Assembly: GCA_016192705.1 (NCBI GenBank)
Contig: JACPTQ010000048.1
Span: 1-64,000, forward strand
Length of the DNA stretch: 64,000 nucleotides
Direction of reading: 5' to 3'
Source of the DNA: Deltaproteobacteria bacterium
GTDB lineage: Bacteria > Myxococcota > JACPTQ01
This document shows, in pieces, positions 38,102 to 46,969 of the stretch. The position numbers and the translations under genes are program-made. Every line of letters begins with the position of its first letter. Position 1 is the stretch's first letter. The notes under the pieces are model-generated. The model saw only the letters and a list, made by a program, of their open reading frames with translations. It searched no databases and was not told the DNA's origin.

Positions 38102-39369
38102 CGATTTCGCTCTCGAACGGTGAGAACAAACCCGAGCGCGGTCGCGAGCGCCGAGCAGAACACCAGAAGGTAGAACACCGTCGACCACGAATAACGCTCG
38201 GAGAGAAAGCCGCCACCGATTCCCGACAGGGCCGCGCCAACATACCCAACCGCGTCGATGAACCCAGCCGCGGTGCCGGTCAAGCGCGTTCCACCAAAAT
38301 CGATCGCCGCGACGCCGGTTACGAGTGAATACGGCCCGTAAAGAAAAAATCCGATCAGCCCCAACGCGACAAACCCCAGTATCTGCGAGCGATCGCCGAA
38401 CGCCGCGAGCACAAAAAGGCACGCCGTGAGCACGACGAGCATGAGCGCAATCGTTCCGCCGCGGCGCGCGCGCCCATAATGATCCGAGATCCAGCCCGCG
38501 AGAATCGTTCCGAGACATCCCATGAATGGAAAAATCGCGCTCTTGAACGCCGCGACGTCGAGCTTGCCACCGAGCGCATTCAGATAGGTCGGCGTCCACA
38601 CCATGAAGAGCGCGCGGATGAACGTGAGGATGACGCTCAGCGAACAGATCAAGATGAAGCCACGCATGCGAAAAAGTTCGCCAAGATCGCGCCACAGCTG
38701 GCCTCGCGCGCGCACCGACGCGGAATCGGTGACCCACGGCGGCGACTTCTCACCGATATCGCGCGGCTCCTCTTTCATCGTCTGCGTCGCGACAACCCCA
38801 AACAGCACCAGCCAAACCGCGGGCACGAAAAAAAGCTCGCGCCAGCCAAAGCCAAGCGACACGAGCGCGCCGACCGCGAAAAGCGAAACGACGTTCCCCA
38901 GCTGGTAATTGACGCTGATGAGTCCGCACGCCGTGCCGACCTCCTCTGGTGCGTACCAGCGCGACACGACGCGGATGAGACCGTTCCAACCGCCCGACAG
39001 CGCGAAGCGGTTAAGCGACCACGCGAAAATAAAAAATGGCATCGACGCGCCAAGCCCAAACGTCGCTGAAAACAGCGCCGACAAAAAAAGCGACGCGAGA
39101 AACATTCGTTTGCCGCCCACCCGATCGACGAGTGGGCCACTCACGAGTTTCCCGAGCGCGTACGCGAGCGTCGATATCGTGATGATGATCCCGGTGTCTT
39201 CGTTTGTCCACGTAAACGCCTTCTGGATGAGCGGCATCGCGACCGAAATGTTTTCACGGCAAAAATAAAACGCGCCGTAAACGATGAGCACCGTCCAAAA
39301 CGTCGAACGCCGCCACGCGAGGTAACGTGCGGAATGCGCTCCCGCTGCGGGAATCGACGACAAATTCAC
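38098..39369 (-). CDS. MFS transporter, GlpT/UhpC-like
   Basis: A 423-residue carrier with 12 predicted helices in the organophosphate:phosphate antiporter branch of the major facilitator superfamily. Seen: YGAFYFCRENISVAMPLIQK in helix 1, the motif-A loop GPLVDRVGGKRMF, SLNRFALSGGWNGLIRVVSR and GWISDHYGRARRGG. The likely substrate is a phosphorylated sugar or glycerol phosphate. It starts at ATG 39369, with the kinase gene divergent. Confidence 0.85.
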   Translation of the reverse strand: MNLSSIPAAGAHSARYLAWRRSTFWTVLIVYGAFYFCRENISVAMPLIQKAFTWTNEDTGIIITISTLAYALGKLVSGPLVDRVGGKRMFLASLFLSALFSATFGLGASMPFFIFAWSLNRFALSGGWNGLIRVVSRWYAPEEVGTACGLISVNYQLGNVVSLFAVGALVSLGFGWRELFFVPAVWLVLFGVVATQTMKEEPRDIGEKSPPWVTDSASVRARGQLWRDLGELFRMRGFILICSLSVILTFIRALFMVWTPTYLNALGGKLDVAAFKSAIFPFMGCLGTILAGWISDHYGRARRGGTIALMLVVLTACLFVLAAFGDRSQILGFVALGLIGFFLYGPYSLVTGVAAIDFGGTRLTGTAAGFIDAVGYVGAALSGIGGGFLSERYSWSTVFYLLVFCSALATALGFVLTVRERNR

Positions 39370-39446
39370 GCCGGCACCTTATCAGCGTCGTGACGCGCCT
39401 GAGAAGCGCGCTTCACAATCGCTCATCGAGCTGTGAGAATACGGCC

Positions 39447-40705
<1,259 letters not shown>

Positions 40706-40709
<4 letters not shown>

Positions 40710-41299
40710 ACCCCAAGCACCACACGATTCTCATCGTTGACGACGAAGTCCAAATCCTCACGGCGCTCCGCCGAACCCTTGAGCCCGAAGGGTACCGCAT
40801 CATAACGACGTCAGAGCCAAGCAAAGTCCTCGACCTCCTCCAACGTGAACGCGTCGACCTGCTCATTTCGGACATCGAGATGGGCCCCGTCAGCGGCATC
40901 GATCTCGTCGCGAGCGCACGCGCCTGGTACCCCGACGTCGTCCGGATCTTGCTCACCGGAAACGCCAACCTCGAAACGGCGCTCGAGGCGATCAACTCCG
41001 GCGAGGTCTATCGCTACCTGACAAAACCGTGGGACGTGAGTGTCATTTGCGAAATCGTGCGTTCGGCGCTTGAACGGCTCGACGAGCACCGGCGCGGCGC
41101 GACGGCTGACCGCGTTGCGTCACGGCGACGGCAGCTCCTCGACGACCTCGAGCAGGAACACCCCGGAATCACGCGCGTCGAACGCAACGGCGCGGCCTAC
41201 ATCCTCGACGAGTGGCGGATCGAAACAATTCTACAGAGTTTGAAATCCGACGATCGCTTCGCAATGACCGCGCTTCTTCCGGCGGACACGACTCCGTAA
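40706..41299 (+). CDS. Response regulator
   Basis: A 197-residue protein. The receiver domain (residues 5-125) has the acidic pair VDDEVQ, the phosphoacceptor Asp in LLISDIEMGP near residue 55, a Thr at RILLTGNA and the Lys in YLTKPWD. It is followed by 70 residues with no DNA-binding or HD-GYP domain; similarity to RpfG-like receivers is visible. Its ATG overlaps the kinase stop, so a kinase and a two-component receiver are made together. Confidence 0.9.
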
Positions 41300-41422: not shown

Positions 41423-44400
41423 ATGAAATCGATCAAATGCACGCCGTTCCTCGTTCTCCTCGCCGCGCTTGCCACCGCATGCGGACCCAACACGATCCTT
41501 CCACCGCTTGCGCCCAGGGAGGGCGACCTTCCGCGCACCGAGGATCCAAACGCGCCCCCCGCGCCACCCGCCGAGCCACCCCCCAACCCGGCCCCCACGC
41601 CGAGCACACCCGCGGACAACGAAGTCCCCATCGGCGAAATCGACGACCAGAACTCCGACGACCCGACGTGGGGCGCCGCAACCGCGTGCAAACCGATCCC
41701 CGCACTCACCGCCCTTCGCGAGCCAACGCTCACCATCTCCGTGCGCGGTCTCACGCTTCGTCTTCGTGATCGCGCCTCCAACTTCGAGCGCGTCTACCCG
41801 ATCGGCGCGGGCCGCATCGGCGCCAACAACGAGTCCGCATCGCTCGTTCCCGTGCGCCTTTCGGGCGGCGACACCTTCAGCGTTATCGACGTCGACCCTT
41901 GCAAAGTGTGGATCACCGTCCCGAACACCGGCGCGCGCGTCCCGGTTTACGCGGGGTTGCCTTTCATCCGCTTTTACGACGGTTATGCGATTCACGGCCC
42001 GATCGACAATTACCGCAATGCGAGCGGCGGCACGCTTCGACGCGGGTATGTTTCGGACGGGGCCATCCGCATGGAGGCGGCCGATCTGCTCGAGCTGACG
42101 GCTCTCATTGGGGGCAGGACGGCGGCCGTCGGCGTTCCGATTCAGATTCTGCGCGACATCGAGCGAGACGCCGAGGGCCGCGCGATCGACATCCCTGCGC
42201 GGTGGATCGGGTCCGAGTGCCGCCGCGACAACGATTGCAACTACGCGGGCGGCAAGTGCCGGATTGTCACCGCGACCGGCATCGGCACGTGCACAGCCGC
42301 GTGCGACCGGTACTGCCTCTACGACAAATACGGTTATTCGCAAACCTATTGCATTGAAGCCGAGCCGAACCGCACCGGCATCTGCGCGATGCAGGCGACG
42401 CCGTTCAACGCCAACTGCACGCGCTTTGAAGGCCTCTCATCGATGACGCGTGTCCGCCACTCGAACGGTGCCGACGTGAGCGTCTGCTTTGCCAATGCGC
42501 CCGCGCAACCTGCGCCACCTCGGCCGCCGCTCGACACGCCACGTGTTCAACTTTACGCGCTCGACATTTGGGGACAGCCGCTTCCGACCAGCGCGAAGGT
42601 GATCGTCGAACGAAACGGCACGCCCGTCGCGACTTACGGCTTCCCCGCCGTGACGTTCTTACTCGAGCCCGGCACGTACAACGTCTCGATCACCGCGCCT
42701 TACCACCACGAACTCCACGCGACGTTTTCGTACGACGGTTCGACCTTCGCAAAGAGTTCCCCCCTCGCCGTCTCGCTGACCCGCGGCGGCCCCGCGCACG
42801 GCCTCTCGCAAACACGCGATTCGCGCATCTTCCCTCCGATGATTGAACCCGTCGCCGTTTTCAACATCTTCCTCGGCCTCCGTCACGCTTACTTCTCCGC
42901 GGAAGGCCGCCCCGCGCGCTCGGGCAACGACATCCAGCTGCTCATGGACGGCGAAGAAAGTTGGACCCGCGTCTGGCAAGACCTCACGCGCGCCCAAAGC
43001 TCAATCCACATTTCGACGTGGATGTGGGATTCGACGTTCGAACTCTTGCGCGACGCCGCGACACATCATCTCCTTTCGTCGGCTGGCCGCGCGGCCAATA
43101 CCATTCTCTCGATCCTTGAGGCGAGCCCCGCGTACAAGCGCGTCCTCGTAAATCAACTTGTCGCGCAGGACAACTTCGCCACAAACTGGCTAACAACCGA
43201 TACGGCGCTTCGCGCGCATGGGCCTCTCGCGAGCGACAGTTTTGAATACATGGGACAGAAAAACGACGCAACGGGCCGCTTTCGAATGGCGCCGCGGAGT
43301 TTCCGGTTCGCGGACCGCGTGCGGAAAGTCTTCGCCGACTTTGCGGCGCGTCCATTTGATCCCGAAGACGAAATCGCGTCGCCGATCGCGCCGCGCATGG
43401 TCGACCTCACGCGCTGGCCCGTAACGCTCGACATTCCGCACGCTTCTCAGCACCAAAAGTTCATGGTGTTGGACGGCACGACGGCGTTTGTCGGCGGATT
43501 AAATTATGTCCGCGCCGATTGGGATTCATCGCAACATCGCGTTTTCGACCATCGCCGCATGCTCTTCGCAGCGACACAGGCGGAGCGCGAGGCGGTCTTG
43601 GCGAAGAGCGACACGCCCGACATGGCTCCGCGCAAGGACTACTTGGTGCGCGTGAAAGGCCCAGCCGTACAGGATGTCGCGGACGTCTTCAAGGTGCGCT
43701 GGGACACGAACATTGCGCGCGCCGCGGAGTATTCGATTAACGCGACGACGTTTCTCGTGAATCGCGCGCAGCCGTCGTATGCCGGCGGCGCAACCGTGCA
43801 GCTCACAACGACCATGCCCGACCCGTGGAACGAACACTCCATTCTAGAATCGTGGCTCGCCGCCATATCGCAGGCGAAATCGTTCATCTACATCGAAGAT
43901 CAGTATTTCCGCAGCACCGTTCTGAACGACGCTATCACCGCGCGCATGAATGCGGTTCCGGACTTGAAGCTCGTCGTTGTCACTAAGCCCATCAACGAGT
44001 GGGTCGACCCCGCGTGTTACTGGACGGCGCGGCTGCACAACAATATGAAGGCGCGCTTCCCGGACCGCTACCGCGTCGTCCAGCTCCGTTCGTTCGACAC
44101 GGCGCCGAGTTTTGGCATCGACGAAACAGCAGGCGTTTTCGCCGACATCGATATCCACTCGAAGATGCTCATCATCGACGACCTCTACATGAGCGTCGGC
44201 TCAGCCAACAAAAACAACCGCGGCATCTTTTACGAAAGCGAGATGAACCTCGCGATCTTGGACGCCGTGTGGGTGAAGAACGCGCGACGCCGCATTTTCG
44301 CGAACCTCTTCGGCTCGTCGGCGTTTGCGACCGACGACGTTCGCGTTTGGTGGAACTACTTCTCGGTCTTCGCGAATTGGAACGACTACGTCAAACAAAA

Positions 44401-44542
44401 CTGGTCGAGCGCGTGGGGCGATCTCAACTTGAACGGGGCGCCGCTACCGTCGACGTATCAGCCGCGCGGATTCCTCTACAACCTCGACTTCCGCGACGCC
44501 TCTTACTGCCTCATCGAAGCCGTTGGCGAAGACATCATGTAG
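41423..44542 (+). CDS. Lipoprotein: degenerate L,D-transpeptidase fused to phospholipase D
   Basis: A 1039-residue lipoprotein (signal FLVLLAALATACGP; Pro-rich linker to residue 70). Residues 95-225 look like a YkuD L,D-transpeptidase domain, with the conserved His-Gly at 191-192 (AIHGPIDNY). The active-site motif S-H-G-C-I-R is changed to S-D-G-A-I-R (211-216), so His and the catalytic Cys are lost. A Cys-rich stretch (residues 260-345) follows, then a beta domain. Residues 480-1010 are phospholipase D with both HKD motifs: HQKFMVLD (His677) and HSKMLIID (His912). It is presumably periplasmic or surface and acts on phosphodiesters. No good SD is seen; the ATG is set by the signal peptide. 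Confidence 0.82.
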   Translation: MKSIKCTPFLVLLAALATACGPNTILPPLAPREGDLPRTEDPNAPPAPPAEPPPNPAPTPSTPADNEVPIGEIDDQNSDDPTWGAATACKPIPALTALREPTLTISVRGLTLRLRDRASNFERVYPIGAGRIGANNESASLVPVRLSGGDTFSVIDVDPCKVWITVPNTGARVPVYAGLPFIRFYDGYAIHGPIDNYRNASGGTLRRGYVSDGAIRMEAADLLELTALIGGRTAAVGVPIQILRDIERDAEGRAIDIPARWIGSECRRDNDCNYAGGKCRIVTATGIGTCTAACDRYCLYDKYGYSQTYCIEAEPNRTGICAMQATPFNANCTRFEGLSSMTRVRHSNGADVSVCFANAPAQPAPPRPPLDTPRVQLYALDIWGQPLPTSAKVIVERNGTPVATYGFPAVTFLLEPGTYNVSITAPYHHELHATFSYDGSTFAKSSPLAVSLTRGGPAHGLSQTRDSRIFPPMIEPVAVFNIFLGLRHAYFSAEGRPARSGNDIQLLMDGEESWTRVWQDLTRAQSSIHISTWMWDSTFELLRDAATHHLLSSAGRAANTILSILEASPAYKRVLVNQLVAQDNFATNWLTTDTALRAHGPLASDSFEYMGQKNDATGRFRMAPRSFRFADRVRKVFADFAARPFDPEDEIASPIAPRMVDLTRWPVTLDIPHASQHQKFMVLDGTTAFVGGLNYVRADWDSSQHRVFDHRRMLFAATQAEREAVLAKSDTPDMAPRKDYLVRVKGPAVQDVADVFKVRWDTNIARAAEYSINATTFLVNRAQPSYAGGATVQLTTTMPDPWNEHSILESWLAAISQAKSFIYIEDQYFRSTVLNDAITARMNAVPDLKLVVVTKPINEWVDPACYWTARLHNNMKARFPDRYRVVQLRSFDTAPSFGIDETAGVFADIDIHSKMLIIDDLYMSVGSANKNNRGIFYESEMNLAILDAVWVKNARRRIFANLFGSSAFATDDVRVWWNYFSVFANWNDYVKQNWSSAWGDLNLNGAPLPSTYQPRGFLYNLDFRDASYCLIEAVGEDIM

Positions 44543-45937: not shown

Positions 45938-46969
45938 TTATCGATTGCGGTCGTCGCACTCGAAAGACGCATCCGTACACTTGTCACCACAAACCCGATA
46001 TTTATCTCCGCAGCGGCTCTCACACGAATAGGCGTGATTACAATCGGCTTCGCAGTCCTTTCTGTTGTTGACACAACGCGTGATGCACCGGCTGTGTACG
46101 GCATCGCAGTTGACCCGTTTCGGGCGCGCCGGCCGCGTGCTTTGCGATTCCGCCGCGCTACCCGCGTTCTTAGCTGTCGCTCGCCATCCACCCTCCGCCT
46201 TTAGGCTCGCTGCATAGCGCACGGCCGGGAAGACGTTGACGATGAGGCCACCCGGCGCGCGCTCGATCACGACGAACCCATGGCCGTACGGTTGTCGCTC
46301 GACACGAACGATTCGCGAGGGGAGTTTTCCCGTGTAATGAAATCCGCGCCCGACGACTCGAAACGGATAGAGCGTTTTCGCGCGTTCGCCCTCGAGAAAC
46401 TTGTGGAGATCCGGCGAAACTGGGATCGGCCCCTTTGCATACCCCTTCATCACGAGCGCGATTGAGCCAACGAGCTTGCCAAACTCCTCGCGTTCGCGAT
46501 CGTTCGACGGTCTTAGGCCGGTGACCCGCGCACCCGAAAAACCCGTCGTCAGAATTGCCAGGCGGAGGGAATCGTGGGACGCGCGAACGTTGTCGGCGCC
46601 GTCAGGAATATCGACCGAGAATCCAAGATACGTTTGCGGCGAATCGCCGTCCGGGGGGGCAAACGTACCCCAGCCGATTCTCGATGCGGCACACAAGGAC
46701 CGATGCGGATCGCGCGAGCTTGGCCCGCAGTCGAACGCCGCCGCGAAACGTTTCGCAAGCGCCTGCACGCCTTCGTCGGATAACAGGGCATCCGGCGTTC
46801 CGTTCTTCGTCACGGCTGGCGCCGCCGTGGAAGGTGCCGTCGTCGAAGCGGCAGCGCCCGCGCCCCGCGGGGTCGTCGGCTCGCTCGGAACCGCAGACGA
46901 TTTGCTACAAGCCGTCGCAACCAAACCGACGATCGCAATCCATGAGATTCTGAGATCCACCGTTGTCAT
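45938..46969 (-). CDS. Lipoprotein with Cys-rich C-terminus
   Basis: A 343-residue lipoprotein (IAIVGLVATACSKS). A low-complexity Ala/Thr/Pro linker runs to residue 55, a globular domain follows to about 285, and the last 60 residues hold 13 cysteines in Cys-x3-Cys-type spacing (SRCITRCVNNRKDCEADCNH and so on), likely disulfide-bonded. No family recognised. It is monocistronic, divergent from the aminotransferase. Confidence 0.7.
   Translation of the reverse strand: MTTVDLRISWIAIVGLVATACSKSSAVPSEPTTPRGAGAAASTTAPSTAAPAVTKNGTPDALLSDEGVQALAKRFAAAFDCGPSSRDPHRSLCAASRIGWGTFAPPDGDSPQTYLGFSVDIPDGADNVRASHDSLRLAILTTGFSGARVTGLRPSNDREREEFGKLVGSIALVMKGYAKGPIPVSPDLHKFLEGERAKTLYPFRVVGRGFHYTGKLPSRIVRVERQPYGHGFVVIERAPGGLIVNVFPAVRYAASLKAEGGWRATAKNAGSAAESQSTRPARPKRVNCDAVHSRCITRCVNNRKDCEADCNHAYSCESRCGDKYRVCGDKCTDASFECDDRNR

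Follow-up and report, generated by a model that had tools for sequence, protein, structure and literature searches.

A catalytically depleted YkuD domain on a eukaryote-type phospholipase D lipoprotein of a myxococcotal genome: a candidate docking or sensing module

The window, a 64,000-nucleotide stretch of contig JACPTQ010000048.1 from a Deltaproteobacteria bacterium (GCA_016192705.1; a 5.2 Mb draft genome in 88 contigs, 96.65% complete), holds on its forward strand an open reading frame (41423-44542) for a 1,039-residue protein. In this protein, a YkuD-type L,D-transpeptidase domain and a Cys-rich domain precede a phospholipase D (PLD) half (Table 1). The translation opens with a lipoprotein-type start ending in LATAC, which we take to be a lipobox with Cys20, the signal being putative. 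No stop interrupts the single 1,080-codon open frame in which the fusion gene lies, and the coding signal of the gene is even, with GC3 at 0.77-0.83 along its length and similar GC by codon position throughout. A scan for promoters and terminators gave no informative signal. Among NCBIfam families, none scored above cut-off. Upstream on the same strand, a serine/threonine kinase gene (39327-41299) overlaps a response-regulator gene and ends 123 bases before the fusion gene; on the opposite strand, a lipoprotein-like open reading frame with a Cys-rich C-terminus (45938-46969) matched no Pfam family above cut-off.

Table 1. Features of the fusion gene, in positions of the window
Feature	Coordinates	Strand	Basis
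Lipoprotein-type signal peptide, putative lipobox Cys20 (LATAC), Gly at +2	41423..41482	+	Translation, by eye
Pro-rich tether, residues 21-78	41483..41656	+	Translation
YkuD-fold domain, putative pseudo-L,D-transpeptidase, residues 98-246	41714..42160	+	AlphaFold2, Foldseek, VIA, paralogue identity
H191-G192, kept; H191 at presumed catalytic-base position	41993..41998	+	Translation, alignments
Degenerate motif S211-D212-G213-A214-I215-R216-M217 (family: S-H-G-C-x-R-M)	42053..42073	+	Translation, alignment, codons
Cys-rich domain, residues 262-356, common with intact YkuD relatives of alignment A6	42206..42490	+	Alignments
Linker with Pro-rich stretch (fusion joint)	42491..42535	+	PLD paralogue homology starts at residue 372
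N-terminal segment of PLD half, ~90 residues, also in PLD paralogue	42536..42802	+	Homology
Eukaryote-type PLD domain, residues 461-1039	42803..44539	+	PF00614, PF13091; profile match to PLD2 6ohm
First HKD motif, residues 677-694	43451..43504	+	Translation, Pfam, profile
Second HKD motif, residues 912-929	44156..44209	+	Translation, Pfam, profile

An initial annotation had described a PLD lipoprotein bearing a degenerate L,D-transpeptidase domain, with HG and an SxGxIRM frame retained and the motif His and catalytic Cys lost, and motif, Pfam scores, paralogue and predicted fold all support that description. The catalytic Cys of S-H-G-C is absent (A214), while the Arg two residues after it is present (R216). 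The same genome encodes an intact paralogue, L003, a 333-residue lipoprotein-like protein with the motif SHGCIRM that is 52% identical to residues 67-361 and is the sister of the fusion protein in the YkuD tree (support 100/98). Codons 212 and 214 are GAC and GCC in the fusion gene and CAC and TGC in L003, one base difference at the former and two at the latter; three differences in two codons do not amount to one slip. The alignments also place an upstream His, H191, at the position of the catalytic base, which is His336 in LdtMt2 (PMC9094749). As the equivalence comes from the order of the motifs and not from aligning the structures residue by residue, we infer that H191 is the base. The lost motif His (position 212, LdtMt2 His352) thus appears to be a different residue from the base, which is kept.

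The Pfam YkuD family (PF03734) gives 13.9 bits for the fusion protein, under the gathering cut-off of 23.4 that L003 exceeds with 33.4, and a phmmer search of the PDB with the YkuD part returned one chance-level match and nothing else. The predicted structure is clearer. AlphaFold2, given 33 relatives, modeled residues 79-361 with a mean pLDDT of 88.6, and the best Foldseek match of this model is B. subtilis YkuD (1y7m, E 1.1e-6) at modest TM-scores of 0.54 by target length and 0.32 by query; the remaining best matches are also L,D-transpeptidases. VIA-align superposed the model on an M. smegmatis L,D-transpeptidase (4xvo; Z 14.9, rmsd 2.8, 120 residues) and on YkuD (4a1i; Z 14.8, rmsd 2.2, 111 residues), in rows mostly spanning model residues 20-168, so the match concerns the YkuD part and not the Cys-rich part. 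The model leans towards the YkuD fold because it was built on intact relatives, these being true homologues. A chance resemblance is excluded by the 52% identity to L003 together with fold matches up to Z 14.9, and residues 98-246 (model residues 20-166 in the VIA superpositions) are predicted to adopt the YkuD fold despite the weak Pfam score. A fold unrelated to YkuD is ruled out by the model and its Foldseek and VIA matches.

The PLD half carries PF00614 and PF13091 above cut-off, and both HKD motifs named in the initial annotation are present, as HQKFMVLD...GGLN and HSKMLIID...GSAN. A two-row profile of this half matched human PLD2 (6ohm, E 5.8e-22) and PLD1 (E 1.6e-20), which points to a eukaryote-type PLD. 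A stand-alone PLD paralogue of the same genome, L002, is 45% identical over 668 columns, and its homology begins at its own residue 17 (fusion residue 372), just past a signal-like start, marking the fusion joint. In a 23-row PLD tree the fusion protein groups with this paralogue at 92/94 (not starred), and in a 10-row tree at 87/78; two other PLDs are closer by identity, L118 (partial, 54%) and L109 (52%).

The region ahead of the PLD half differs among relatives. A profile of the C-terminal part of the PLD half matched in 59 of 195 genomes of the phylum (7 strongly, 52 at E 1e-18 to 1e-27), and this PLD also occurs in 14 of 31 genomes that hold YkuD relatives. Twelve of those 14 PLD frames are clear of a contig edge, and in all 12 the PLD half is preceded by just a short tail. 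In a clade of the same phylum (L098-L103; 100/99), members with a visible N-terminus instead carry Cys/Asp-rich repeats there, and MopE-type repeats (PF11617) scored above cut-off in three of five proteins scanned (L098, L099 and L103, not L100 or L104). Short tails are commoner than MopE repeats. These differing N-terminal regions suggest that the segment before the PLD half is a variable slot, occupied here by the putatively dead transpeptidase. More broadly, the PLD relatives (L098-L103, L109-L122) form a family of lipoprotein-like eukaryote-type PLDs with differing N-terminal regions.

Relatives of the YkuD part came from 195 genomes of the same phylum, from a contig scan (33 loci) and from 377 genomes of the phylum of one such locus (35 matching). 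Two other scans were negative: one of genome contigs, made first from a two-row alignment, gave 27 pattern matches and one of viral contigs gave 29, with no relative in either set. Of the 33 loci, 32 have titles of Myxococcota-type genomes or Deltaproteobacteria and one is titled 'uncultured proteobacterium'. The relatives are 28-53% identical to the YkuD part, and the rows of alignment A6 have the Cys-rich tail in common. In many members of this YkuD lipoprotein-like family (L003, L035-L067, L123-L157) the catalytic domain is followed by a Cys-rich repeat or a pair of them. Many YkuD lipoproteins (A6 rows) and some separate PLD lipoproteins (L119-L121) have a short K-A-D-G/A motif a little past the signal region. 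At one locus (L106:2767-9833) the neighbors of an intact YkuD gene encode a protein of FGE-sulfatase type on one side and one with NHL repeats on the other; a gene for an RCC1-repeat protein is close by.

The catalytic Cys is kept in all 57 relatives examined and the motif His in 56, the exception being L154 (SAGC). The 57 comprise 37 rows of alignment A7 (without the fusion protein), 15 new genomes and 5 further loci; two duplicates are left out (L008 and L009, of L044 and L064), and L134 and L058 are one protein. No PLD was seen in frame with YkuD in any of them, judged by absence of HKD motifs from the frame for 37 and 15 and by size for the other 5 (265-497 residues, too short for an extra 668-residue half), with the frames of L024 and L150 reaching the C-terminal-side contig end. 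The combined Cys loss and fusion has therefore been observed once. Loss of the Cys across the family is ruled out by its retention in 57 of 57 relatives, and the closest genomes that the searches listed share the phylum, none being nearer. The initial annotation had also allowed for a relative with an intact motif, which would mark the loss as a recent single mutation. Such relatives do exist, but a recent single mutation is ruled out by the 52% identity to the sister, the change of two motif residues (three bases) and the fusion itself.

Despite losing these two residues, the domain has changed little where the family is constant. The 35 intact relatives compared (L003 being treated apart, partial L024 dropped and columns filled in fewer than 30 relatives not counted) show no variation in 46 columns; L003 keeps 42 of these and the fusion protein 43. 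The three departures of the fusion protein are G186D (Asn in L003), H212D and C214A, and in the Cys-rich part it also retains each Cys column that is invariant in alignment A6. Together with the even coding signal, the 43 conserved columns rule out a plainly decaying pseudogene. The end branch of the fusion protein is nonetheless longer than that of L003 (1.01 versus 0.73), with more one-sided departures (39 versus 23, chi2 4.1); this somewhat faster change speaks against strong constraint, and mild relaxation would likewise produce it. On balance, the YkuD domain looks like one that was retained with its chemistry removed.

By homology, the gene joins two sources: one copy from a YkuD/Cys-rich lipoprotein family seen here in Myxococcota-type genomes, and a secreted eukaryote-type PLD. 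Two engineered Cys-to-Ala mutants, DpaA C143A (PMC8263019) and LDTBcn C354A (PMC10864386), are reported as inactive, and by analogy C214A and H212D would leave the YkuD domain without transpeptidation. The retained fold, H191, R216 and 43 of 46 invariant columns favor a non-catalytic docking or sensing module on the Pro-rich tether. By binding either a partner protein or a stem of peptidoglycan, such a module could keep the phospholipase at the interface of outer membrane and cell wall, or gate it, while the PLD half, given its intact HKD motifs, would cleave phospholipid head groups. The intact YkuD sister and stand-alone PLD paralogue in the same genome, together with the variable N-terminal slot, support reading the domain as an accessory module. 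We put the probability that an envelope lipase has taken over a pseudo-L,D-transpeptidase for docking or sensing at about even (roughly 0.5). Counting against this reading, the fusion is a single occurrence, with the nearest searched kin at phylum level. A Cys-less L,D-transpeptidase acting non-enzymatically has a parallel in LdtJ C390S, with which growth fitness and morphology were reported not to depend on enzymatic activity (PMC12548408).

Peptidoglycan, whose binding the initial annotation suggested might place the lipase at the wall, is a plausible ligand of the module, and the 43 conserved columns help that reading. The H212D change speaks partly against it by analogy, since it would put a negative charge where LdtMt2 His352, whose backbone NH lies in the proposed oxyanion hole, makes water-mediated contacts to the stem peptide (PMC11410929). 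Weak ligand binding by LdtMt2 also weighs against it: the isolated enzyme is described as having low affinity for monomer (PMC11410929), and its binding of a precursor was weak (mM) and took place away from the catalytic site, in an interdomain pocket (PMC9094749). On the supporting side, a structure of LdtMt2 C354S (8pxy) is titled, in its database entry, as 'in complex with natural substrate'. A more tentative and less probable suggestion is that the emptied pocket reads peptidoglycan stems (or, owing to the Asp, a changed stem), and would thereby position or gate the PLD at the outer membrane and couple lipid turnover to the state of the wall.

Alternatively, the YkuD half may have arrived with the fusion as a signal peptide and spacer, lost its activity without selection, and now serve as a passive folded spacer. 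The longer branch and excess of one-sided departures would fit such a history, as would the single occurrence of the fusion and the lack of any comparable module in L002 and in most separate PLD relatives. A spacer under no constraint is harder to reconcile with a count of conserved columns on par with that of the intact sister, with two of three departures falling exactly on the motif His and Cys, or with the retained Cys columns of the Cys-rich part; we regard this relic as possible but rather doubtful. Less likely again is that the domain is a pseudoenzyme regulator that pairs with L003 or with a cell-wall hydrolase, much as degenerate LytM domains pair with amidases. Reported precedents are EnvC and NlpD, degenerate LytM proteins that act as regulators (PMC8416486), and SpoIIQ, which is localized by its own dead LytM domain (PMC3533761). 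A six-frame YkuD search of the source genome at E 1e-3 found L003, the sister, as its sole match, which favors this pairing, yet the genes for L003 and the fusion protein lie on different contigs of the draft.

It is very improbable that the domain is still an enzyme of another chemistry, with H191, S211 and D212 as a new active site. H191 and S211 are indeed retained and an acidic residue has been gained; however, the nucleophile position holds Ala, as in the inactive engineered mutants above, and the Cys, kept in all 57 relatives examined, gives no sign of a Cys-independent branch. Least credible of all is that the fusion is an artefact of assembly or sequencing, whether through the joining of two separate genes or through miscalled bases in the motif. 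Although the assembly is a draft in 88 contigs, both halves differ from the genome's other copies at about half of their residues and so are not simply those copies joined; moreover, the frame is open throughout with even GC3, and base errors would have to account for three differences in two motif codons.

The preferred docking or sensing module can be set against several known systems. It resembles YkuD-type L,D-transpeptidases (PF03734; B. subtilis YkuD, LdtMt1, LdtMt2) in its fold (VIA Z 13-15), its HG...S-x-G-x-x-R pattern, H191 and R216, but differs from them in lacking the catalytic Cys and motif His, in scoring below the Pfam cut-off and in being fused to a PLD. The YkuD/Cys-rich lipoproteins of Myxococcota-type genomes (L003, L035-L067 and others), for which we met no published name, have a homologous YkuD part but keep the Cys, and no PLD was seen on them. 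Human PLD1 and PLD2 and plant PLDalpha likewise have two HKD motifs and a YIE-x-Q-Y/F-F stretch, whereas the fusion protein is a bacterial protein of putative lipoprotein type with a different N-terminal half. DpaA (LdtF) is another YkuD protein diverged from transpeptidation (PMC8263019), but in the opposite manner: DpaA has the Cys and lacks the Arg two residues after it, while the fusion protein has the Arg and lacks the Cys. In the degenerate LytM factors (EnvC, NlpD, SpoIIQ), too, domains of cell-wall enzymes that have lost their activity serve in regulation or localization, though they belong to a different enzyme family and the likeness is one of analogy. The open-access passages surveyed here yielded no natural dead YkuD domain.

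What is new here is a candidate pseudoenzyme module from an enzyme family already known; its domain architecture was encountered nowhere else in this survey. The reuse of dead cell-wall enzymes as regulators is already known for LytM domains (PMC8416486, PMC3533761), and a single example carries limited weight. If the module does bind peptidoglycan, however, it would allow substrate binding in YkuD pockets to be probed without reaction, and would present a case in which lipid remodeling is directly tied to the cell wall.
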